The translations under genes and the position numbers were made by a program. Shown here piece after piece: positions 1,319 through 18,306 of a DNA stretch of 34,501 bases. Each line of letters begins with the position of its first letter. Position 1 is the stretch's first letter. The notes beneath the pieces were generated by a model. The model had not been told where the DNA came from. It saw only the letters and a program-made list of their open reading frames with translations, and did not search any database. The DNA is from Bacillota bacterium (GTDB lineage: Bacteria; Bacillota; Sulfobacillia; JAJZYS01; JAJZLH01): the NCBI GenBank assembly GCA_021803575.1, contig JAJZLH010000075.1, forward strand, positions 1-34,501. The letters run 5' to 3'.

Positions 1319-3196
1319 CCCGAGTTTGAACGGAGTTTTCGCGAGATCCGCACGGGATAAGGGTTAGCGGGCGCGAGAAAATTCGTTGGCACTACAAACC
1401 TGCTTCCTGCCCGCTGTCGGCTGGCCCCTTCAGCACCCGCGGCGGCGGCCTGAGACCCACGGCCTGGAAGGCCTCGAAGGCTCTGCCCCCAAGCTGGGAC
1501 CGGACCTCGTAGCGCCTGTCGCCTTGGATCAGCGTTGCCACCGAAAGGCCTCCCAGGTCACGCATCACAGCGTGGTAGTCGTGCTCGGCAAGAAGCCCGC
1601 CGTGCTGCTGCCCCATCGCCTGGCGGAGCGCCATCTCCAGGGCGTAGGCCAGGAAGCAGACCATCACGTGGCCCCGGATCCTGCGGTCTGTGAAGTGGCG
1701 GATGGGACGCAGCTCGAGCGGCCCCTTCACCTCCCGGAACACCCGCTCCACCTGATAGAGCTGGCGATAGGCCCGAAAGATCTGCTCGGGGCTGAGCTCG
1801 GCGCTGGAGCGGAGCACGTACTTGCCGTCGTAGCGGGCCTTCTTTTTCAGCGCCTCGGCGTCCAGGGCCACCAGTTTGCCTTGCACCCGGACGTAGGGCC
1901 GGAAGGAGGTGTTCCGGAGCAGCGCCGATCCAGACGGGTTCTGCTTCAGCACCGCCCTTAGCCGGGTGATGACCTCCTGGCGCCGCTGCTTCTCCCTCTC
2001 TGCCTCTTCCCGGTTGTGGCAGACCACGTACCACTCGCCCTCCACCCGCAGCGGCTTGATCCGGATCGGCAGCCCCTCGAGCTCCCGCCAGACCCCGGCC
2101 CGGTCCGAGATCGCCCGCTCGGCGGCCCGGGTCATGCGGCAGCCCACCACGTAGGGCAGACCGGCCTCCCTAAGGCCCTTCAGAATCTCCTCCGACACCA
2201 TGCCGCGGTCGGCGCACAGGATCACCCGACTGATCGAGAAGCGCTCCTCGAGCGACTTCACCAATCGGGTGAAGGCCCTGGCATCGTGCAGGTTGCCGGG
2301 GAACACCTCATGGCCGATCGGGATCCCGGCCCCGGTGACCAGGACGCCGATCAATAAGAGCCGGCGGTCGTAGCGGCGCTCTTTGCTCTTGCCATACTGG
2401 GCGAGATCGCCTCTGGTCTCGCCCTCCACGTAGGTGTTGGTGGTGTCCACCAGCACCAGGTCCAGCGCCGGGTTGAACAGCCCGCGCGTCTTCTGCCATA
2501 AGGTCTGCTCAAGTGCGTCCTTGGTCTCGGCCAGGAGGTCCAGCGCCCGGTACAGGTGGTGCAGGCGAAGGTCCTCCAGGTCCGGGGCGTACACGGACGG
2601 CAGCCACTCCTCGAAGGTCCGGAGCTTGGAGAGGGGGTCCATCAGCCGCGCAGCCACCATGGCGAACACCGCCCGGTCCAGCAGCATGTCGGTGCGGTTC
2701 GCCCCGCGCAGGAAGGGGCCGACGCCCAGCTCTTCGAACAGGCGGCGGAACACCGGCAAGGCTCCCAGCAGCCGGGATCCCTGGTATCCCTCGTCCTCAC
2801 GGCTGGGGTCCAGGATCAGGGTACGCTGGGCCAGGGGCGCCATGCTCCGGACCAGCTTGTCGATGTCGGCCGGGTCGAGGAGGTCCTTGCGGCCGAGGTT
2901 GGCCACGGTCTTCTGGCGAGGGCCCTTACTGGTGCGGGTGGCCTCCACGATCAGGAGGTACTCGTACCAGCGTCCGTTCTGGTAGACGCGCTTCGTGCGA
3001 ATGTACATTGCACCTCGGGACTTCTCCACACTGTTCCACTATTCCTGCATGTTCTCCCAGAAGACTTTCTGTAACATTGTCACTACACTTTTCGCCATTT
3101 CAGGCCTGTGATTCGAGTCCGCGCCAGATCGCGCGAGGTAGAGCGAGATCCAGCGAGTTGTCCTGGCAGAGACTGGATATCTCGTTCAAACTCGGG
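1319..3196 (-). mobile_element. Complete IS1634-family-like insertion sequence, 1878 bp
   Basis: Perfect 14-bp inverted repeats CCCGAGTTTGAACG (1319-1332) and CGTTCAAACTCGGG (3183-3196), immediately bounded by 5-bp direct repeats GCTGG (1314-1318 and 3197-3201); intact transposase ORF inside. Confidence 0.92.
1392..3029 (-). CDS. IS1634-family-like DDE transposase
   Basis: 545-aa ORF: MYIRTKRVYQNGRWYEYLLIVEATRTSKGPRQKTVANLGRKDLL...LVLVDTTNTYVEGETRGDLAQYGKSKERRYDRRLLLIGVLVTGAGIPIGHEVFPGNLHDARAF...ADRGMVSEE..YRQLYQVERVFREVKGPLELRPIRHFTDRRIRGHVMVCFLAY; translation may start at Met 3008. Confidence 0.9.
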   Translation of the reverse strand: MEKSRGAMYIRTKRVYQNGRWYEYLLIVEATRTSKGPRQKTVANLGRKDLLDPADIDKLVRSMAPLAQRTLILDPSREDEGYQGSRLLGALPVFRRLFEELGVGPFLRGANRTDMLLDRAVFAMVAARLMDPLSKLRTFEEWLPSVYAPDLEDLRLHHLYRALDLLAETKDALEQTLWQKTRGLFNPALDLVLVDTTNTYVEGETRGDLAQYGKSKERRYDRRLLLIGVLVTGAGIPIGHEVFPGNLHDARAFTRLVKSLEERFSISRVILCADRGMVSEEILKGLREAGLPYVVGCRMTRAAERAISDRAGVWRELEGLPIRIKPLRVEGEWYVVCHNREEAEREKQRRQEVITRLRAVLKQNPSGSALLRNTSFRPYVRVQGKLVALDAEALKKKARYDGKYVLRSSAELSPEQIFRAYRQLYQVERVFREVKGPLELRPIRHFTDRRIRGHVMVCFLAYALEMALRQAMGQQHGGLLAEHDYHAVMRDLGGLSVATLIQGDRRYEVRSQLGGRAFEAFQAVGLRPPPRVLKGPADSGQEAGL

Positions 3197-7898: not shown

Positions 7899-8957
7899 TC
7901 ACTCGGTGACGGGTCGGCCGCCCAGCACCAGATGGTGCCCGGATTCAGCCACCACCCGTCCAATCGGCCAGAACTGCACATCCTCTGCTGCGAAGTGGGA
8001 CTCCAGCTCGGCTGACAGCTCCGGCCGGCAACTGATCAAGAGACCGCCGGAGGTGACGCCGTCGGCGTACACGGCCAGTTCCGACTCACTCAGGGCTTCC
8101 ACCACGTCCAGGTCCTTCTCGACGTAGCGCACGTTGTCCCAGGTGCCGCTGGGCACCTCCCCGGCCTTGGCCTGGCGGAAGGCGGTCGGGTGGACCGGCA
8201 CCCGGCTGGCATCGATCTCGAGCGTGACTCCAGACGCCCGCGCCATCTCCAGGGCGTGGCCCAGGAGCCCGAAGCCGGTGACGTCCGTGACCGAGCGGAT
8301 AGTCCCCACCGACCGCACCGCCTGAGCGGCGGCGCGGTTGAGCTGGGCCATCCAGGCCACCATGCTTGCCTCCACCTGGTGGTCGATCACGCCGTCCTTG
8401 GTCGCCTTGGCCAGGATGCCGGTGCCGATCGGCTTGGTCAGGTAGAGCAGGTCTCCGGGCCGGGCGCCCTCCTTGGTCCAGATCTGTCCGGCCGGCACCA
8501 CGCCGGTCACGGCCAGGCCGTACTTGGGTATCGGGTCGTCGATGGTGTGCCCTCCGACCAGCACGGCACCGGCCTCCCGCACCTTATCCAGGCCGCCGCG
8601 CATGATGTCGTGCAAAATGGCCACGGGCAGGTCCTCAATCGGGAAGGCCGCCAGAGCCATGGCGGTGATCGGGGTGCCACCCATGGCGAAGATGTCGGAC
8701 AGGCTGTTGGCGGCCGCCACCTGGCCATAGGCGTAGGCGTCGTCCACGATCGGCGTGAAGAAGTCCACCGTCTGCACCAGCCAGGTGTCGTCACTGACGG
8801 CGTAGACGCCGGCGTCGTCCGTGGCACCGACGATCAGACGCGGGTCGTCAAAGGCCAGGTCAAGCCCAGACAGGATGCCTTGCAGGTCCTCCGGACCCAC
8901 CTTGCAGCCTCAGCCGCTCTTGTTGGAGAGCGTGGTCAGGCGCACGGCCTCGCGCAT
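7899..8957 (-). CDS. selD: Selenide, water dikinase SelD, selenocysteine-containing (UGA at 8912-8910)
   Basis: Track ORF starts at 8900, but upstream in frame is ATG(8957) MREAVRLTTLSNKSG-UGA-GCKVGPEDLQGILSGLDLAF; UGA at codon 16 aligns with the SelD catalytic Cys/Sec site. Starts 3 nt after the selA stop. Confidence 0.95.
8881..8912 (-). promoter_or_regulatory. Putative bacterial SECIS hairpin of selD
   Basis: UGAGGCUGCAAGGUGGGUCCGGAGGACCUGCA: inner stem GGUCC/GGACC with GGA loop, outer UGCA/UGCA, 5-nt asymmetric bulge, apical loop about 17 nt after the UGA. Confidence 0.65.
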
Positions 8958-8960
8958 CCC

Positions 8961-10310
8961 TCAGGCCTCCTTGCTGAGAAGACTCCTCGCCAGAATATCG
9001 GCCACCTCGGCCAAGCGGGTCTCGGGCAGGGTTCTGACATCCACGACGATCATGCCATCTTCGACCTGCACCAGCAACGCGACCCGGCCCTGGCGCAGGC
9101 GGGCCTGGACCCGCGACGCTGACTGGGGCGAGGGGTCGATCGCCACCGCCCACCCGGTCAGTTCGACACCGGGCAGGCTGCCGCCGCCGGCCACGCCGCC
9201 CTTGGGCACCAGGGAGGCCGTCACACCGCGCACCTTGAGCAGGCGACCCAGCCGCTGGGCGAGCGCCCTCAGCCGGGCAGGGTCGGCCTCCAGCATCCGC
9301 CGCACCGGCAGGGCGTCCGGCTCGACCAGAGACTGCCACAGCGTGGCCCTCAGGGCAGCCACCGCCATCTTGTCCGGCCTCAGGGCCCGGTAGAGGGCAT
9401 GGCGCTTCAGGCGCTCGATGACGTCGCGGCGCCCGATCGCCACGCCAGCCTGGGGGCCGCCCAACAGCTTGTCTCCGGAGAAGGTGACGACGTCCGCACC
9501 CTGGCGAAGGCGCGATGCCACCTCGGGCTCTCCCGGCACCGGCAAGAGGCTGCCGGAGCCCAGATCGTCGATCATCAGGAGCCGGTGGGAGTGGGCTAGC
9601 TCAGCCAGGGCTACGGGATCGGCCTGCTCGGTGAAGCCGCGCATCTCGAAGTTGGATGGATGCACCCGCATCAACGCCGCCGTCTCGGGGCCGATCGCCC
9701 GTTCGTAGTCGGCAAGGCGGGTGCGGTTGGTGGTGCCGACTTCGACCAGGCGCGCCCCCGAGGCAGCCATGATGTCCGGCACCCGGAAGGAGCCGCCGAT
9801 CTCCACCAGTTCGCCTCGGGAGATCACCACCTCTCGCCCCTGGGCCAGGGCGGTGAGGGCCAGAAAAACGGCGCCGGCGTTGTTGTTGACCACGACTGCC
9901 GCCTCAGCGCCGGTCACCAGCGTGATGAGGTGCCCCAGGTGGTCCTGACGGCTGGCCCGCTCTCCGCTGGCCAGGTCGAACTCCAGGTCGCTGTAGCCCT
10001 GGGCGGCCTGGGCGGCCATCCGGGTGGCCAGTTCCGAAAGCGGCGCCCGGCCGAGATTGGTGTGGATGATGACGCCGGTGCCGTTCAACACCTCGCGGAG
10101 GCCGGGCCCGGTGGCATCGGCGAGGGCCCGGACCTCTACCGCCAGCTGCGCTTCTCCCTCCGGCCGTCCGCCCAGAGTGAGCCTCTGCCTCTCCTTGGCC
10201 AGCACCCGTTCGATCAGGTCGACCCACAGCCGGTTGGCCGGCAGACCGGTCAGAGTCAACAGCCGGCTCACGGACGGCAGCCGCCGCCTCGGATCCTCAG
10301 GCACCGTCAT
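8961..10310 (-). CDS. selA: L-seryl-tRNA(Sec) selenium transferase
   Basis: LNGTGVIIHTNLGRAPLSELATRMAAQAAQGYSDLEFDLASGERASRQDHLGHLITLVTGAEAAVVVNNNAGAVFLALTALAQGREVVISRGELVEIGGSFRVPDIMAASGARLVEVGTTNRT. Confidence 0.97.
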   Translation of the reverse strand: MTVPEDPRRRLPSVSRLLTLTGLPANRLWVDLIERVLAKERQRLTLGGRPEGEAQLAVEVRALADATGPGLREVLNGTGVIIHTNLGRAPLSELATRMAAQAAQGYSDLEFDLASGERASRQDHLGHLITLVTGAEAAVVVNNNAGAVFLALTALAQGREVVISRGELVEIGGSFRVPDIMAASGARLVEVGTTNRTRLADYERAIGPETAALMRVHPSNFEMRGFTEQADPVALAELAHSHRLLMIDDLGSGSLLPVPGEPEVASRLRQGADVVTFSGDKLLGGPQAGVAIGRRDVIERLKRHALYRALRPDKMAVAALRATLWQSLVEPDALPVRRMLEADPARLRALAQRLGRLLKVRGVTASLVPKGGVAGGGSLPGVELTGWAVAIDPSPQSASRVQARLRQGRVALLVQVEDGMIVVDVRTLPETRLAEVADILARSLLSKEA

Positions 10311-11544
10311 CGCCTCCGCTCGGCCCGTGAGGGCCGTAGCGCTCCTCGAGCACCCGGCGGGACATGGAGATGAAGACCAGTTGCATCTTGTCGGGACTCC
10401 CCTCTCGCCTGGCGCCCTGGGGGTGATAGATCAGCATCAGCCAGTTGCGGTAGGTCTTGGCCCACCAGCCACCCAGGTCCTGGGCCACCGGACTGACCGT
10501 AAAGCCGAGGCTGGAGGCGGGCCGGCCCAGAATGGTGGTGCCGATGAAGACCTCGATGTCTCGCCAGGCGGGCTCTGTCTCCAACCGACCCGCCAATAGC
10601 GCCAGCGAGTGACGGAGCGCCCTAAGACCCCGGATCGCACCGGTCTGGCTGAGCATGGTGTTCTTGAGGTGGATCTCCCCGTAGACCGTACCGGGGGCGA
10701 GGGTGGTGCCGTCGGACAAGACGATGGGCGCTTTGAGCACCCCGCGCTGCAGGCGGAAGATGGACTCGGCACCCAGGTCGTCCACATGATAGATGCGGTC
10801 ATAGAGCGCCTCCCAGAGATCCCAGATCCGCATCCGCAGGGGCACGGTGGCGCGCCCGCCCTTGACCAGCTCGTCGACCGTGACCAGCGCCATACCTCTG
10901 GCCCGCAGCGCCGGAAGTGCCGTCTGGAGCGCCTCCAGGGTGCGGTGTCGGCCGTCGCCGCCCGCATCGTGCAAGAGCACGATGTCTCCGGGCCTGGCTG
11001 CCGCGATGCGCGCCGAAATGTCGGCAGGCGTGTCCTTCTGCCGCCAGTCGAAGGCGTTGACCGACCACAGCACGATCCGATGGTCGAGCCGGGCGGCCGC
11101 CGGCCACAGGGCCAGGTTGAACTGGCCCCACGGCGGGCGGAGCAGGTACGGCCGCTCCAGGGTGTGGCTGGCCAGCACGGCGGATGCCTGCTCAAACTGG
11201 CGCAAGGTAGCCACCGGACCCGTCCACCAGAGGACGGGGTGCGTCTCCGAATGGCTGGCCACCTGGTGGCCGCCGGCTTGCACCTGCCGCACCAGGTCCG
11301 GGTAGCGCTCGGCGCTGCGCCCGACCATGAAGAAGGTGGCCCTGGCATCCGCCTTGGCGAGCAGGTCCAGCAGCTCGGGCGTGAGCGGACCCGGGCCGTC
11401 GTCGAAGGTGAGCGCGACCTCCTGGCGCTCCGTCTTCACCTGGCGGATGGCACCGACGCCCAGGTAGTGGCCGAGCAGCTCTGGGACAGCGGCATAGGCG
11501 AGGGCGATGGCCACCAGCCACTCCAGCCAGCCAAAAACGCTCAT
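10297..11544 (-). CDS. Membrane-anchored polysaccharide deacetylase (NodB) with C-terminal YkoP-like domain
   Basis: ATG 11544: MSVFGWLEWLVAIALAYAAVPELLGHYL..VALTFDDGPGPLTPELLDLLAKADARATFFMVG...VASHSETHP; C-terminal ~180 aa (DGTTLAPGTVYGEIHLKNTML...VFIGTTILGRPASSLGFTVSP) resembles YkoP as recalled. Confidence 0.85.
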   Translation of the reverse strand: MSVFGWLEWLVAIALAYAAVPELLGHYLGVGAIRQVKTERQEVALTFDDGPGPLTPELLDLLAKADARATFFMVGRSAERYPDLVRQVQAGGHQVASHSETHPVLWWTGPVATLRQFEQASAVLASHTLERPYLLRPPWGQFNLALWPAAARLDHRIVLWSVNAFDWRQKDTPADISARIAAARPGDIVLLHDAGGDGRHRTLEALQTALPALRARGMALVTVDELVKGGRATVPLRMRIWDLWEALYDRIYHVDDLGAESIFRLQRGVLKAPIVLSDGTTLAPGTVYGEIHLKNTMLSQTGAIRGLRALRHSLALLAGRLETEPAWRDIEVFIGTTILGRPASSLGFTVSPVAQDLGGWWAKTYRNWLMLIYHPQGARREGSPDKMQLVFISMSRRVLEERYGPHGPSGGDDGA

Positions 11545-12662
11545 AGGTCCTCCACCATGCGCAGCCGCTCCAGGGGGTAGAGGGCGTAAAAGACGGCCAT
11601 GGCGGCCAGAATCACTGCTGCCAGCAAGAACGGCCCCTCCGGTTTCAGAATGCCCCAGGCGGCCGCCCCCAGCACCGGACCCACGGTCAGTCCGAGCCCC
11701 TCCACGGTCATGAACACGCCCCACAGCGCGGCCTCGGCACTGGGGTGCACGGTGCTGGCCAACAGGGTATTCCAGGCTGGCAGGATGAGGGCGAAGCCGA
11801 TGCCCATCAGGGCTGCCAGGAGGGCCGCCGGCCAGAACTGACGGGTCTCGCCCAGCAGGACCAGACCGATCGCCGCCATGGCGAAGCCGGCCACCAGCGG
11901 ACGGCGCACACCCGACTTATCAGCGATCCGCCCCAATGGCACCATCAGCACCACCGCCAGACCGCCGCCCACCGCCAGCAGCTCGCCGTAGCGGAAGCCG
12001 ATCAGGCCGAGCACATTGTGCAAGAAGAGATTGATCACCGGTAAGAGCACGCCGACCGTCATGCTCTGGGCGAACATGCCTGGGAAGAGCACCGACACCT
12101 TGCCGACCCGCCGCCACAGCTTCCAGCTGGGAAGCGGCACGCCGGCATGGGCGGCCCGAGCCGGCAGCAGCAGGGCCATCAGGAAGGCCAGCGCCTGGAC
12201 GGCCAGCACGATCATCAAGCCGGTCTTGAGGTGGGCCGGCAAGAGGAAGTTCATCAACACTGGACCAACGCCGATGGCGATGATCCAGATGGCAAAGACA
12301 CCCCCGATCACCGAGCCGCGCCGCTCCTCGCGGCCCCGGGTGGCGGTCGTGATCACCGACGGCCAAAGCGGCGAGGTGCCAACTCCATAGACGGCGAGAA
12401 ACAGCCAGAGCGGTGCGGTGGGCCCAGCCCGGCTGACCATGAACAGGGCGAGCAGGGACAGCGCCGCGCCCATGCCGGTGACGGCGCGGGCTCCGAAGCG
12501 ATCGACCAGCCAGCCGGACGGGGAGCGGCCGAGGGTGTCCATCAGGTAGTGGGCCGAGATGGCAAAGGCGGCGATGGAGAGCGGCAGCCCGAACTCGACG
12601 GTCACCAGGTCGGGCAGCAGGCTGACCAGAACGGTGGCGCGCACGAACTCGGAGAGGAACAA
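11541..12662 (-). CDS. MFS transporter (LtaA-like by context); start codon uncertain
   Basis: LLLFLSEFVRATVLVSLLPDLVTVEFGLPLSIAAFAISAHYLMDTLGRSPSGWLVDRFGARAVTGMGAALSLLALFMVSRAGPTAPLWLFLAVYGVGTSPLWPS; 12 hydrophobic segments; frame open upstream through the GT gene; listed start is a TTG. Confidence 0.83.
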   Translation of the reverse strand: MFLSEFVRATVLVSLLPDLVTVEFGLPLSIAAFAISAHYLMDTLGRSPSGWLVDRFGARAVTGMGAALSLLALFMVSRAGPTAPLWLFLAVYGVGTSPLWPSVITTATRGREERRGSVIGGVFAIWIIAIGVGPVLMNFLLPAHLKTGLMIVLAVQALAFLMALLLPARAAHAGVPLPSWKLWRRVGKVSVLFPGMFAQSMTVGVLLPVINLFLHNVLGLIGFRYGELLAVGGGLAVVLMVPLGRIADKSGVRRPLVAGFAMAAIGLVLLGETRQFWPAALLAALMGIGFALILPAWNTLLASTVHPSAEAALWGVFMTVEGLGLTVGPVLGAAAWGILKPEGPFLLAAVILAAMAVFYALYPLERLRMVEDL

Positions 12663-12679
12663 GAGCAGGACGGGAAGGG

Positions 12680-13852
12680 CTAGAAGTATCTTGCCAGCAG
12701 GTCCTGAACGATCATCTGGGCTGCCCTCGGCCGACCCGCCCGCAGGGCTGCCTGGCGCATGCCCTGCTGCCGGTCCGGTTCGGAGAAGAAGCGGTGGAGG
12801 CCCGCTACCAGTTCGTCTACCGTTGTCGCCCAAAAACCGGCCCCCTCGTCTACAACCAGACGCACGTTCGCCATCTCCTGGCCGGGAATCGGTCGGAAGA
12901 TGGCCATCGGCAAACCGGAGGCCATCGCCTCGGAGGTGGTGAGTCCCCCCGCCTTGCTGACCAGGATGTCGGCGATCCGCATCACGTCCCAGGTTTCCTG
13001 GAGATAGGCCTGGACTAGCAGTCGATTCGGTGCGCGGCCCGCCACCTCCTTGAGGGCCTGGCCCAGAGCCTGGTCGTGGCCGGTCAGGGCCAGGTAGGTG
13101 ACGGCCGGGCCCCGCTCCACCACCTGGGCGATCACCTCGGCGAAGCCGCCGATCATGCCGTACGCCCCGGCCATCAGGACGACGACTGGCCCGTCGCCGA
13201 CACCCAGCCGCTGGCGCACCGCCGGCACATCGACCGGATCGGCGAAGGCGGGGTGAACAGGGATGCCGCTGGCCACAATCTTGTCTGGGCTGACGCCCCG
13301 CGCCACCATGCCCTGGCGCACCGCCTCCGAGCCCACATAGTAGCGGTCGACGGCCGGGTGCATCCACTGGCTGTGCACCGTGTGGTCCGTCACCACGGCC
13401 ACGTTCGGGGTGTTTAGACGGCCGCTGAGGCGCAGGCTGGAGATGACGCCGGCCGGGGTCGGGAAGGTGTTGACCAGCACCTGCGGGTGGTCTGTCAGGA
13501 TGCGCCGCAATAGGCTCTCCCGCCCCAGGCTGTTCAAAAAGCGCTGGGCCGGCGAATCCGGCCTGACCTGACTGGTGCCCTGGTAGAAGGTGTTCCAGAC
13601 CGCTGGCAGGTGGCGGACGCTCAGCACGTAGATGCTGCGGATCAGGTTGTTCATGGTCGGGCTGAGGTGCTCGAAGAAATCGATCTCGCTGGTGGCGACA
13701 GCCGGCGCCAGGCGCACGAAGGCCTCTGCCAGCGCCTGGGCCGCCCGCTGGTGGCCTGCGCCCATGGTGGCGGACAGGAACAGCACCCGGCCGGCCTTCC
13801 CCGCTGCTTGCATGCTGCGAGCTTCCCCAGGCGTCCACACCGGTCCTGCCAC
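12680..13852 (-). CDS. Diacylglycerol glycosyltransferase, UgtP/MGDG synthase family
   Basis: VLFLSATMGAGHQRAAQALAEAF...SEIDFFEHLSPTMNNLIRSIYVLSVRHLPAVWNTFYQ...VVTDHTVHSQWMHPAVDRYYVGSEAVRQGMVARGVSPDKIVASGIPVHPAF...LVSKAGGLTTSEAMASGLPMAIFRPIPGQEMANVR; GTG start with strong SD GGAGGGGAGGGG. Confidence 0.9.
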   Translation of the reverse strand: MAGPVWTPGEARSMQAAGKAGRVLFLSATMGAGHQRAAQALAEAFVRLAPAVATSEIDFFEHLSPTMNNLIRSIYVLSVRHLPAVWNTFYQGTSQVRPDSPAQRFLNSLGRESLLRRILTDHPQVLVNTFPTPAGVISSLRLSGRLNTPNVAVVTDHTVHSQWMHPAVDRYYVGSEAVRQGMVARGVSPDKIVASGIPVHPAFADPVDVPAVRQRLGVGDGPVVVLMAGAYGMIGGFAEVIAQVVERGPAVTYLALTGHDQALGQALKEVAGRAPNRLLVQAYLQETWDVMRIADILVSKAGGLTTSEAMASGLPMAIFRPIPGQEMANVRLVVDEGAGFWATTVDELVAGLHRFFSEPDRQQGMRQAALRAGRPRAAQMIVQDLLARYF

Positions 13853-13897
13853 TTCGCCCCTCCCCTCCGGCGACGAGCTGTGTGCACTTTGCCTATA

Positions 13898-16207
13898 ATG
13901 GGCCTGTCGCGCAATCGATGGGGAGGGTTCGAGCTGCAGAAGCTGGTCTGGCGCCTGGGCATGGTGGCCCTACTGACCGTGGCCCTGGGGTCGTTTCTTC
14001 CTCGCCAGGCTCAGGCCGCCGCCCCGCCCAGCCGCCATGTGATCGTGCTCCTGGTCAACGACACGTCCATCCAGAACTGGGCCTTCACCAACCTGCCCGT
14101 GCTGCATCAGCTGGCAGATCAGGGCGGTGTCGGACTGATGAACTCCAACACCTCCGGCCCGAGCGTCCCTCCCAATGGTCTGCTCACCATGGCCACCAGC
14201 GCCCACATGAAGACCGCCGGGCCCGAACTCAGCCTGGACGCCAGCGGCACCTATCACGGATTGCCCGTGTCCAGCCTCTATCTGGCCGAGTTCGGCCGGC
14301 TGCCGCCCCCGGGCGCCGTCGTCTCCCTGGACGCCGGTCAGAATCTGGCGCTGAACGCCGCCAACCCATACAGCTTCACCATGGGGGCGCTGGCCCAGGA
14401 GATCATGGCGGCCGGCGGTACCACCGCCGTGTTCGGGAACGAGGACCAGCCGTTTTCCCTCAACTCCGACCACTGGGTGTTCGATCGCTCCGGCGCCCTC
14501 GTCGCCGAGAACGCCCAGGGCATCGCCACCCGGGGCAATGTCGGCGACAACCTGCTCATGCCGTACACCGGCGCCCCCTTCGGCGTGGCCCTCAACAATC
14601 AGCTCCTGTTGCAAGACGTGCTGGCGGCCTATCCCCATACCACGATGACCGTGGTGGACTACGGCGACACGGTGAGGGCCAACCTGTGGCGCCACTTCGC
14701 CGTGTCCTCGGCCGTCGCCAATGCCGCCACCGCCTTCTCCCTCCACCACTTCGATAGCTTCCTCGGCCAGCTCTTGCCCCACGTGAACCGCCAGAACACG
14801 ATGATCATCGTGGTCTCGGCGGCACCCTCCGACCTGGCCGTCACGGAGCACGAGTCGCTGACGCCCCTCTTGGTGGTGGCGCCCGGCTATCAGCCCGGCG
14901 TCCTCTCCTCCGGCACCACGCACCGCTACGGCATCGTCAGCAACATCGACGTGGCACCGACCATCCTGGCGTTCTTGCACGTGCCGGTTCCCACCGACTT
15001 CTTCGGCCGCCCCACCTTCTCTCTGCCCGCCACCCACACGCTCAGCTTCCTCTCCCAGCTGGGCAGCCGCCTGGCCTTTCAGTCCTTCCAGCGGCTGCCG
15101 GTGCTGAAGACCCTGGTCTACTACATCGTGATCGTCTTTCTGGCGGCCATCCTCTACGTCCTATTCAGCCGCCGCACCCGGCCCCGCCTGAAGGCCTTGC
15201 TCAGCGCCACCATGGTCTCCGTGCTCTACCTGCCGCTGGCCATTCTCTTGGCGCCCCTGGCCAGCCCGATGTCGGTTGACGCCAGCTTCGCCGCCATCAT
15301 CGGCTTCACTTTAGTGGCCACCCTGGCCACGGTCTACCTGTCCCGAAACGTCCTCGACCGCATCCTGGTGCCATGCATCCTGACCTCCATCGTGCTCCTG
15401 ATCGACCTTTTGACCGGCGCCCACCTGATCAAGAACTCGGCGCTCGGCTACGATCCGCAGATCGGCGCCCGCTACTACGGCATCGGCAACGAGTACATGG
15501 GAGCCTGGATCGGCGCCGCCTCGATGGGCCTCACCGCCCTCTTGGACCGCGGCCGGCGCCGCTGGCTGATTCCGGTCGCCATCGTCTTCTTCCTGGCCAT
15601 CATCGCCGTGATGGTCACACCTGACCTCGGCACCAAGGCTGGCGGCGCCATCACCGCCACAGCCGCCTTCGGCATCCTGGTCCTGCTCCTCACCGGCCGC
15701 CGGGTCGGTCTCAAGGAAGTGGCCGTGATCGGCGGCGCCATCATCGTGCTCCTATTGGCACTGGTCATTGGCGACATCACCCTGCACAGCGCGGCCAGCC
15801 GCACCGACATCGGGCGGGCCGGGCTGCTCATTGCCTCGGGCGGCCCGCAGCAGGCCTTCTTCATCATCGTCCGCAAGCTGGCCACCGATATGTCGCTGAT
15901 CCAGGGCAGCTACTGGACGCTCCTCTTCCTTGTCGCCCTCGCCATCCTGGTCACCGTGCTGACCGTCCTGGTCGGCACCTCGCGCCAGTTCCAGGCCCGG
16001 TACAAGTATCTGGGCTACGGCTTTGTGGGTGCGATCGTCGGCTCAGGCGTGGGGCTCGTCTTCAACGACACCGGTGTCATCGCCGCCACCACCTGCATCA
16101 TCTACCCGATCGCCACCGTGCTGATGCTGGACCTGATGCAACCGCCGCTGACGCTCCGGCTGACGCCCAGCGCCGAGGTGAGCCCCGAACGGACTGAGGA
16201 GGCCTAG
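13898..16207 (+). CDS. Alkaline-phosphatase-superfamily-like extracytoplasmic domain fused to C-terminal polytopic membrane domain
   Basis: Signal-like N-terminus, HVIVLLVNDTSIQNWAFTNLPVLHQLADQGGVGLMN...VSNIDVAPTILAFLHVPVPTDFFGRP, then about 10 TM segments with ALGYDPQIGARYYGIGNEYMGAWIG. Alternative in-frame CTG start 13934 after GGGGAGG. Confidence 0.8.
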   Translation: MGLSRNRWGGFELQKLVWRLGMVALLTVALGSFLPRQAQAAAPPSRHVIVLLVNDTSIQNWAFTNLPVLHQLADQGGVGLMNSNTSGPSVPPNGLLTMATSAHMKTAGPELSLDASGTYHGLPVSSLYLAEFGRLPPPGAVVSLDAGQNLALNAANPYSFTMGALAQEIMAAGGTTAVFGNEDQPFSLNSDHWVFDRSGALVAENAQGIATRGNVGDNLLMPYTGAPFGVALNNQLLLQDVLAAYPHTTMTVVDYGDTVRANLWRHFAVSSAVANAATAFSLHHFDSFLGQLLPHVNRQNTMIIVVSAAPSDLAVTEHESLTPLLVVAPGYQPGVLSSGTTHRYGIVSNIDVAPTILAFLHVPVPTDFFGRPTFSLPATHTLSFLSQLGSRLAFQSFQRLPVLKTLVYYIVIVFLAAILYVLFSRRTRPRLKALLSATMVSVLYLPLAILLAPLASPMSVDASFAAIIGFTLVATLATVYLSRNVLDRILVPCILTSIVLLIDLLTGAHLIKNSALGYDPQIGARYYGIGNEYMGAWIGAASMGLTALLDRGRRRWLIPVAIVFFLAIIAVMVTPDLGTKAGGAITATAAFGILVLLLTGRRVGLKEVAVIGGAIIVLLLALVIGDITLHSAASRTDIGRAGLLIASGGPQQAFFIIVRKLATDMSLIQGSYWTLLFLVALAILVTVLTVLVGTSRQFQARYKYLGYGFVGAIVGSGVGLVFNDTGVIAATTCIIYPIATVLMLDLMQPPLTLRLTPSAEVSPERTEEA

Positions 16208-18306
16208 CGGTCGGTGCCGGCTTGAGGCGGCCAGAGGCGTAGACCCAATTTCTCGTCCCAGCTTCTGGTCAGGGGCGGGCCGTGCTGGACACTGATCCGG
16301 TACTCGCCGGTGTACACCTCGCAACCGGTCAGCACGTGGCCACCGATGGTCGTGCCATCGGCGCGCCCGGCCACCAGGTGCAGGTGGGCGAAGGGCTGGC
16401 CGTCAGCCAGGGAGAGGTTCCCAGTCAGGCTCAGGATCTCGAGAGGCTCATCGAAGCTCAGCGGCTGGTAGCGCCGCTGCCTCTGGTCAAAGAAGGCGAT
16501 CTGGCATTTGGTCAGGGCACCGATCGCACTCACCCAGGCCGTCTCGACCTGATGCCGGCTCGCCCACTCCTGAAAGAAGGCGAGCAGGTCGGCGCCGGTC
16601 GGTATCCGCCCCATGTCGACCGCCAGCGCTTGGGCATCCTCGGCCCGGGCTGCCTGGGCCGTGGGGACCTCGGCGCGAAGCTGGCGCTGAATGTGCGCGG
16701 CGTCCTGGAGCGGGCGGCTGCACTGCTGGCCGCGGCAGACCACCACACCGGGAGCCATGGCGTCGGCACGGAGCACCGCACCGGGCGGCAGTGCGCTGAG
16801 CACAGCCGCCAGTCCATCCCGGGGCAGATCCTTGGGCAGGCTGACGACGCAGGGCCGCACCTGGTCGATCACCAGCATGCGGCCGTACGCCGCCGCCAGC
16901 AGACTCTGGCCGGCGGCCGCCGAGGCGGCCGCCTTGAGCGCCGCCTGCCAGGCGCCAGCCAGGGTGGGGTCTGGGCGGATGTCATCCAGCCAGGCCATCA
17001 GCTGGCCGGCCCAGGCGTTGACGGCGAGCGGGTACTCAAGGTGACGCAGCCGTCCCAGGCCAAACTCCGGTAGTTCGGGAAAACCATCGGCACTGAGCGA
17101 GCGGAGCAGCAGGTCTGCACACTCGTCCCCGACAGTGCCCAGATCGGAGCCGGGTGTCACGGCACCGAGGAAGAGGGCGGTGAGACCGACCTGTGCCACA
17201 TCCGCGCTGAGATTGGAAAGCGCTCCCGGTTGATCGGTGTGCCGCAGTATGCCAGCGCCGAGGCAGCGGGCGAGCATGGTGCGGAAGGCCGTCTCTCCGG
17301 CTTCGGCCCACTGGGGGCGGTCCAGGATCACTCCGGCCGCCACCAGCGCCCTGGTGGCCCTGGCGACCCAGCCGGCATAGACGGTGCGGTCCACCAGGGG
17401 CGGGGTCCCTTGGCGCCTTGCTGTGAGGTCCCCTGCGTAGTAGGCCTGGTCGGCGTCCTGGCTGCCGCCGAGGCAGCTGCCGTCGTAGAGGACCCGGACC
17501 ATGTAGTCGGCGGTGCCGGCGGTGGCCTCCCGTACCGTCTTTGGCACGTCGTCACCGAGGCCAAGCAGCACCTCCAACATGGCCGCCTGATCGTCCAGCA
17601 TCTTCTCATAGTGTGGCTGGGACCAGTCCTGGGTGGTGCTGTAGCGGAAGAAGCCACCCTCCACCGGGTCGTAGAGCCCATCCTCCACCATCCTGGTCAC
17701 GCTCTCCAGCACCATCGGCCTGGCCTCCACGTGGCCTCCGAGCCCTGCCAGGTCCAGGAGGAAGGCCAGGACATCGGTGAGGGGAAACTTCGGCGCATGG
17801 CCAAATCCGCCGTGGCGCCGGTCATAGGCCCCGGCAATCTCCTCGTAGAGCTGATCAATGTGGCGGCGGTCCGGACTCCTCTTGGGTCTGGGCACAGCGG
17901 GCGGTGCGGGCTGGGCGGGCCTTGCCCGCTGCAGGTAGGAGACCACCTGGCGGATCGTCGCTGCCATCTCCGCGGGCGGCAGATAGGTGGCACCGGTCAA
18001 GAGCTCGCCGTCGGCGTCGAGGAAGGCCGTGGTCGGCCAGCCGCCCATGTTGTAGCGATGGTCGACATCCGGCCTCTGATCCGCATCGACCCGGATCGGC
18101 ACCAAGTGCTCACGGATCAGCTCCATCACGGTGGGGTCCGAATAGGTCGTCTCATCCATCACGTGGCACCAGTGGCACCACACCGCCGACACCGACAGCA
18201 GCACAGGGCGGCCATCGGCGCCGGCCTCGGCGAACGCCTCCGCTCCCCACTCTCGCCAGGCGATCTGGTCGGCCCGGTTCGGCCTTGGCGAAAATCGGTG
18301 GCTCAC
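16204..18306 (-). CDS. DUF255 thioredoxin-domain (YyaL/SSP411-like) protein fused to C-terminal PPC/DUF296 domain
   Basis: N-term VLLSVSAVWCHWCHVMDETTYSDPTVMELIREHLVPIRVDADQRPDVDHRYNMGGWPTTAFLD; middle KMLDDQAAMLEVLLGL; C-term FFQEWASRHQVETAWVSAIGALTKCQIAFFDQRQRRYQPLSFDEPLEILSLTGNLSLADGQPFAHLHLVAGRADGTTIGGHVLTGCEVYTGEYRI. Confidence 0.9.
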   Translation of the reverse strand: MSHRFSPRPNRADQIAWREWGAEAFAEAGADGRPVLLSVSAVWCHWCHVMDETTYSDPTVMELIREHLVPIRVDADQRPDVDHRYNMGGWPTTAFLDADGELLTGATYLPPAEMAATIRQVVSYLQRARPAQPAPPAVPRPKRSPDRRHIDQLYEEIAGAYDRRHGGFGHAPKFPLTDVLAFLLDLAGLGGHVEARPMVLESVTRMVEDGLYDPVEGGFFRYSTTQDWSQPHYEKMLDDQAAMLEVLLGLGDDVPKTVREATAGTADYMVRVLYDGSCLGGSQDADQAYYAGDLTARRQGTPPLVDRTVYAGWVARATRALVAAGVILDRPQWAEAGETAFRTMLARCLGAGILRHTDQPGALSNLSADVAQVGLTALFLGAVTPGSDLGTVGDECADLLLRSLSADGFPELPEFGLGRLRHLEYPLAVNAWAGQLMAWLDDIRPDPTLAGAWQAALKAAASAAAGQSLLAAAYGRMLVIDQVRPCVVSLPKDLPRDGLAAVLSALPPGAVLRADAMAPGVVVCRGQQCSRPLQDAAHIQRQLRAEVPTAQAARAEDAQALAVDMGRIPTGADLLAFFQEWASRHQVETAWVSAIGALTKCQIAFFDQRQRRYQPLSFDEPLEILSLTGNLSLADGQPFAHLHLVAGRADGTTIGGHVLTGCEVYTGEYRISVQHGPPLTRSWDEKLGLRLWPPQAGTDR

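Follow-up and report, generated by a model that had tools for sequence, protein, structure and literature searches.

Genes of the locus

The window analysed here is a 34,501-nt stretch of a Bacillota bacterium (assembly GCA_021803575.1, contig JAJZLH010000075.1, corresponding to contig C21 in a genome of 1.5 Mb that is 97% complete). It carries four genes that a first-pass annotation had named and that were all confirmed: genes for a UgtP-type glycosyltransferase (GT), a major facilitator superfamily (MFS) transporter and a polysaccharide deacetylase on the minus strand, and a gene for an alkaline phosphatase (AP)-like, polytopic membrane protein (P0001) on the plus strand. Homologues of every one of these genes are present at high significance in other genomes, which excludes a chance arrangement of open reading frames. 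Compared at the sequence level, the locus appears to consist of two neighbouring envelope units, each conserved separately and without a single common function. It is no lipoteichoic acid (LTA)-like operon; an ordinary glycolipid cassette (unit 1) lies next to a gene of a widespread and as yet unnamed family (unit 2), and the membrane half of its product is tentatively assigned here to the extracytoplasmic glycan transferases.

An AP-superfamily fold without its metal site

The AP-like protein is encoded at 13898-16207 (+) and comprises 769 amino acids when read from the ATG at 13898. Its AlphaFold2 (AF2) model (pLDDT 87.7) contains an AP fold at residues 46-378 (14033-15031, +), followed by a polytopic C-terminal domain of about 12 helices at residues 379-750 (15032-16147, +), which when modelled alone reached a pLDDT of 93.5 and a pTM of 0.91. 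Foldseek comparison of the N-terminal domain returned 129 PDB chains with E <= 0.001, and the best 50 of these all have an AP-superfamily or AP-like fold; PH0037, YejM and LtaS (2w8d) were matched at E 1.9e-6 to about 1e-5, sulfatases were found too, and the matches also include LtaS 4uor, the YejM periplasmic domains and full-length PbgA 6xlp. As modelled, the N-terminal domain has the AP-superfamily fold, which does not imply catalysis. The modelled order of domains, with the AP domain N-terminal and the membrane helices C-terminal, is the reverse of that in LtaS, and both the fold and the reversed order proposed by the first-pass annotation were borne out.

Residue conservation was counted over an alignment of 107 family members, with the numbering of the window protein. 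The canonical metal motif DHG, already noted as not evident in the window copy, is found in 0/107 members, and the site equivalent to the first metal Asp is not fixed (Asp in 73, Asn in 14, Pro in 12), with Asn in the window copy. No PF00884 match was obtained for P0001, and among 22 members scanned there was a single match, at E 0.013. A search of 61 related genomes detected AP-like homologues in 25 of them, and across the phylum 208 of 299 genomes gave a match, about 185 of them with E < 1e-20. No Pfam or NCBIfam model covering the family was found, a literature search found no paper describing it, and sequence-only searches of the PDB with full-length and C-domain profiles returned nothing useful.

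Invariant residues in the membrane half

The strongest conservation lies in the membrane half, which holds all of the family-invariant polar residues: R399, R525, N531, E532, K660, W673, N723 and D724 are each present in 107/107 members. These residues fall into short motifs, all encoded on the plus strand. In the predicted outer loop between transmembrane helices (TM) 4 and 5, R525-YYGIG-N531-E532 (15470-15493) has R525, G528, G530, N531 and E532 in 107/107. The predicted outer loop between TM6 and TM7 contains PDLGTKAGG (15620-15646), which aligns with P.LGAN.GG in the family and has Lys in place of N580 in the window. D637 (15806-15808) occupies the site of a near-invariant His (103/107) of the family motif SHxG. 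The R659-K660 and W673 motif region follows at 15872-15916 (K660 and W673 in 107/107), and NDTG (16064-16075; NDSG in the family), with N723, D724 and G726 in 107/107, is in the predicted outer loop before the last helix.

The loops at residues 419-430, 479-488, 551-558, 597-606 and 689-703 have a mean net charge of +1.4 to +2.9, and those at 455-461, 573-582, 629-637 and 721-727 of -1.0 to +0.3, with +1.1 for the R525 loop. Taking the modelled helices, the distribution of Lys and Arg under the positive-inside rule, and an AP domain placed outside the cell, the motif loops are predicted to be at, or close to, the outer surface of the membrane. This is the side at which GT-C-type lipid-linked glycan transferases act.

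A GT4 glycosyltransferase as partner gene

Among 63 loci counted by script, 38 have a GT4 glycosyltransferase gene that directly adjoins the AP-like gene and is read in the same direction; in 35 of these 38 it is immediately upstream, at a spacing of -28 to 257 nt. Two further cases, L048 and L098, escaped the script; in L098 two AP-like copies flank the GT4 gene. Two genomes belonging to the same family encode GT4 and then the AP-like/polytopic protein in a single stop-free frame of about 1,070-1,100 codons, with a hydrophobic stretch between them (L048:7634-10834 and L049:7248-10535). This adjacency and fusion, a Rosetta-stone type of evidence, tie the family to glycan synthesis. The usual neighbour of the AP-like protein is thus GT4, not UgtP/LtaA. 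Another arrangement was seen in L105 (5470-12467), where an AP-like gene, a NodB deacetylase gene, an L,D-transpeptidase gene and a second AP-like gene follow one another on one strand; genomes of that family carry 2-4 AP-like copies.

In about 31 loci, roughly half (for example L039:11515-11952 and L036:5789-6172), the AP-like gene is closely followed by an S-adenosylmethionine decarboxylase gene (speD), and other loci have menaquinone/heptaprenyl genes (L069).

The position of the conserved residues and the GT4 linkage bear on the possibility that the protein is a sensor or regulator like YejM (PbgA), in which the dead AP domain would bind an outer-leaflet glycolipid and the membrane half would relay a signal or regulate an envelope enzyme without catalysis of its own. 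YejM periplasmic domains and PbgA 6xlp rank among the closest folds, the metal motif is gone in 107/107 members, and YejM is a precedent for the AP fold as a non-catalytic, lipid-reading scaffold, having been described as a metal-free pseudo-hydrolase that reads lipid A (PMC13125744). The contrary view, that YejM is itself a metalloenzyme, is argued in one paper (PMC7576196). Invariance in the present family peaks not in the AP domain but in the membrane half, where the charged and polar residues look like a catalytic set; the membrane helices of YejM are N-terminal; and a GT4 that is adjacent or fused points to a step in biosynthesis. A sensor role is on this evidence considered unlikely.

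Weak similarity of the membrane half to WaaL/Wzy-type transferases

Foldseek comparison of the C-domain with the PDB gave the yeast STT3 subunit as top match (E 0.045), followed by other oligosaccharyltransferase (OST) subunits, with the O-antigen ligase WaaL (7tpg) ninth (E 0.43, TM-score 0.35); STT3/OST subunits and WaaL are the only biologically sensible proteins among the top matches. A profile comparison was made with a WaaL/Wzy profile built from 21 PF04932 proteins of the phylum, using block-shuffled profiles as the null. The hhalign score of the C-domain against WaaL/Wzy was 34.9 over 307 columns, relative to 19.0 +/- 2.4 for shuffled profiles (z about 6). SEDS (25.6), PMT_2 (18.5) and Wzx (20.0) profiles, with nulls near 17-18, and an MFS profile were also tried as relatives of the C-domain and were rejected as weak or at background.

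The same comparisons were used to assess whether the C-domain might be a flippase or exporter, carrying a GT4-made lipid-linked glycan across the membrane to an AP-fold domain that receives it. A cytosolic GT4 adjoining or fused to a polytopic protein would fit coupled synthesis and export, as would the count of about 12 helices. However, Foldseek similarity to MFS, MATE and ABC proteins does not rise above noise, hhalign scores to Wzx and MFS profiles are at or near background, the invariant residues are predicted on one side of the membrane rather than along a pore, and an LtaA-like flippase is already present in the window, so that an exporter is judged improbable.

Placement of the C-domain in the WaaL/Wzy (GT-C) superfamily is an unproven lead from weak fold and profile evidence, and its working like a GT-C transferase is the leading hypothesis. 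Several observations weigh against it and against the glycan-transferase reading set out below. No Foldseek match of the C-domain had E < 0.04 and TM-scores were <= 0.35; the hhalign probability to WaaL/Wzy was just 9-29%; and no Pfam Wzy_C/PF04932 match was found in the 22 members scanned at E 0.1. A hasty alignment of the 107 members scored lower against WaaL/Wzy and in a different register; a careful alignment of the same members scored 34.2 in the original register, and 6 of 8 random halves did likewise. The GT4 partners show no match to a particular polymer pathway, the GT4 link does not hold for the window, in whose order the AP-like gene has no GT4 neighbour, and proximity of the AP-like gene to the glycolipid cassette is limited to the window genus and one further family.

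Weighing these points, we tentatively favour, at somewhat under even confidence, the reading that the protein is an extracytoplasmic glycan transferase and that its AP-fold domain is catalytically dead. Its mechanism and substrates would be as follows. The membrane half would act as a glycan transferase, either a ligase or a polymerase, at the membrane's outer face, and the loops that bear R525-N531-E532, N580, H637, K660 and N723-D724 would hold its active site. The AP-fold domain, its metal chemistry lost, would bind or position the acceptor or the lipid-linked donor. In most relatives the donor would be started by the GT4 encoded next door or fused; in the window's order, with the GT4 neighbour gone and the His replaced by Asp, the unit 1 glycolipid may now be the substrate.

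A broader proposal, which is possible and somewhat less likely, is that the family constitutes an unrecognised class of extracytoplasmic glycan ligases or polymerases that combine a divergent GT-C domain with a pseudo-phosphatase module for the acceptor and have a GT4 partner of their own. Such a class would make an undescribed but common surface glycan or glycolipid through much of one large lineage of Bacillota, with Thermaerobacter marianensis and Thermacetogenium phaeum among its members, and would have been rewired to a UgtP/LtaA-type glycolipid in the window's order. If the protein is a glycan transferase, a common step in envelope polymer synthesis of anaerobic and thermophilic Bacillota has been overlooked until now. 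A family with strong matches in about 185 of 299 sampled genomes of the phylum, and with seven invariant residues (R525, N531, E532, K660, W673, N723 and D724), is without a Pfam model or an assigned function.

The glycolipid cassette

Unit 1 begins with a UgtP/MGDG-synthase-type glycosyltransferase, similar to processive diacylglycerol (DAG) glycosyltransferases, at 12680-13852 (-). It matches Pfam MGDG_synth PF06925 at E 1.7e-31, passing the cut-off with 110 bits versus 25, and scores 236 bits against the NCBIfam diglucosyl-DAG synthase model PRK13609, which is under the 500-bit cut-off; its best solved relative is the processive DAG beta-glucosyltransferase 9wde (E 4.7e-40). The end of the GT gene abuts or overlaps the start of the MFS gene at 11541-~12690 (-; Pfam MFS_1, E 2e-32), for which no ATG, GTG or TTG start is close to the first helix.

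The nearest PDB structure to the MFS protein is the glycolipid flippase LtaA (6s7v, E 1.8e-32, versus E 3e-7 for NorA), and the NCBIfam LtaA model NF047396 was matched at E 4e-43, versus 1e-9 for Tet, with 148 bits, under the 450-bit cut-off. LtaA reads the glycolipid headgroup and protons through E32, R35, D68, W127 and W150 (PMC8866510), and the window MFS has all five pocket residues, as do 18/18 aligned homologues. The protein thus appears to be an LtaA relative and not a strict equivalog. Drug efflux was considered for it and rejected, LtaA being the nearest relative and the pocket residues being conserved. Together with the class-wide gene order described below, these results uphold the first-pass annotation in treating the GT and the MFS as a pair that makes and flips a glycolipid.

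The MFS stop and the ATG of the third gene share 4 bp (ATGA). This gene, at 10297-11544 (-), encodes a membrane-anchored NodB-type polysaccharide deacetylase (PF01522, Polysacc_deac_1, E 1.5e-30, 106 bits) with intact NodB/CE4 motifs TFDDG, HSETH, RPPWG and LHD, and with a C-terminal YkoP domain (PF22790, E 2.7e-29) that had gone unmentioned in the first-pass annotation. A literature search found no paper on a YkoP-deacetylase. Directly downstream are selA and selD (7899-10310, -), and the arrangement deacetylase-selA-selD recurs in L149-L152, from four more genomes of the order, the cassette thus bordering selenocysteine machinery.

The order GT, MFS, deacetylase is kept in 14 of 20 loci of the class fetched around GT homologues; the remaining 6, including that of T. 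marianensis, have the GT and the deacetylase, with no MFS detected. GT-MFS adjacency was accordingly seen in the window and in 14/20 class loci, plus L035. The AP-like gene is in 0/20 of these loci, showing that the cassette stands on its own. Co-occurrence of the genes holds class-wide for the cassette and does not extend to the AP-like gene; the proposal of a single locus that makes, flips and decorates a glycolipid-anchored polymer is not supported.

Unit 1 is, as far as its sequences can tell, an ordinary cassette for making, flipping and deacetylating a glycolipid. The GT would add a sugar to a lipid, probably diacylglycerol, at the cytoplasmic face; the MFS would flip the glycolipid; and the anchored deacetylase would probably de-N-acetylate a hexosamine outside the cell. 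A deacetylase placed after the flippase suggests an amino-sugar glycolipid. Neither a PF00884 protein (sulfatase/LtaS) nor a PF04464 teichoic-acid polymerase was found in the window genome, and the glycolipid is therefore probably not an LTA anchor.

The same absence bears on the idea that the AP-like protein polymerises an LTA-like chain, transferring phosphoglycerol or another phospho-group by AP chemistry. The fold matches to LtaS (2w8d, 4uor) and the UgtP-LtaA-like pair beside the gene speak for it, and eukaryotic glycosylphosphatidylinositol (GPI) ethanolamine-phosphate transferases share the order of an AP domain followed by a polytopic domain. Against it are the family-wide loss of the DHG motif (0/107) with a first metal Asp that is not conserved, a class-wide cassette that lacks the AP-like gene, a usual neighbour that is GT4, and a genome without a PF00884 or PF04464 protein for teichoic-acid synthesis. 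LTA polymerisation by AP chemistry, as suggested by the first-pass annotation, is rejected on the family-wide metal-motif loss and the missing linkage; it is largely refuted by sequence and barely tenable.

The AP-like gene of the window

Divergent placement of the AP-like gene beside unit 1 was seen in the window genus, and in one further family (L035) the two are 1.9 kb apart. No AP-like match was obtained in 11 more genomes of the order, most of them belonging to a third family, and cassette loci from four of these 11 contain the GT, deacetylase, SelA and SelD genes in 4/4 and the MFS gene in 3/4. Because relatives in the order that lack an AP-like match still keep the cassette, the adjacency is recent and narrow. 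A single co-functional five-gene locus is rejected, the AP-like gene being absent from class cassette loci and the sister-family cassette persisting without an AP-like match. The adjacency may mean that the transferase was rewired to the unit 1 glycolipid, or it may be mere proximity.

The window copy departs from the family at three sites: H637 to Asp and S725 to Thr occur in four sequences, from the window genus and a second family within the order, to which the Asp is confined, and N580 to Lys occurs in those four and three others. With the missing GT4 neighbour, the changes H637D, N580K and S725T could mark a decaying relic of the family. The reading frame is nevertheless intact, the same substitutions are shared by two congeneric genomes (86% identity) and by a different family within the order (42% identity), no other invariant residue has changed and conservation extends to the upstream region, all of which makes decay very unlikely. 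The GT4 genes of the window's own genome were examined as a lost partner and were rejected: against the adjacent-GT4 profile three of the four score 165-189 and one scores 62, and none is linked. Contig C8 of this genome carries a GT4 gene near a PF04932 (Wzy/WaaL) gene (L118:4634-5743; C8:7122-7547), a separate possible glycan locus.

The start of the AP-like gene was re-examined by comparison of three congeneric genomes, in which TTTGCCTATAATG (region 13888-13936) is identical. One congeneric genome has a +1 indel just after TTTGCCTATAATG that puts ATG 13898 out of frame, making this ATG doubtful as a start and the overlapping TATAAT (13894-13899, +), invariant in the three genomes, likelier to be a -10 box; a consensus scan for a full sigma-70 promoter at 13894-13899 gave no match. 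The conserved in-frame CTG at 13934-13936 (+), behind the conserved Shine-Dalgarno-like GGGGAGGG (13920-13927, +), is the probable start of the AP-like protein.

At its other end, the AP-like gene overlaps by 4 bp the end of a gene at 16204-18306 (-) that encodes a DsbH-like thioredoxin domain (DUF255) with a C-terminal PCC domain. An IS1634-family transposase gene is located at 1392-3029 (-) of the window.

Comparison with known systems

The AP-like protein shares with LtaS/MdoB-type enzymes the extracytoplasmic AP-superfamily fold (2w8d, 4uor), and differs from them in its reversed domain order, its about 12 rather than 5 membrane helices, the family-wide loss of the metal motif and the absence of a PF00884 match above the cut-off. 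The eukaryotic GPI ethanolamine-phosphate transferases (PIG-N/Mcd4 type), with an N-terminal AP fold and a polytopic C-terminus, have an intact metal site, and no Pfam sequence match of the AP-like protein to them was found. YejM/PbgA is, like the window protein, a membrane protein with an AP-like fold and no canonical metal site. The membrane domain of the window protein is C-terminal, larger and far more conserved, the two belong to different phyla, and the family described here has a GT4 partner gene.

WaaL/Wzy proteins (GT-C, PF04932) resemble the C-domain weakly in profile and fold; shared, too, is the presence in outer loops of an Arg that is invariant and a His that is nearly so. The present family differs in having no Pfam match, motifs of its own (GARYYGIGNE, P.LGAN.GG, SHxG, RK..MN and NDSG) and an AP-fold domain before the membrane half.

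For unit 1 the closest system is YpfP (UgtP)-LtaA of Staphylococcus aureus, with which it shares the GT family, LtaA as nearest solved MFS, adjacency of the two genes and the five pocket residues (PMC8866510). It differs in scores under the NCBIfam equivalog cut-offs, in the added NodB-YkoP deacetylase and in a genome without LtaS. A UgtP-LtaA make-and-flip pair that occurs without LtaS and is coupled to a deacetylase challenges the use of ugtP-ltaA as a marker of LTA.

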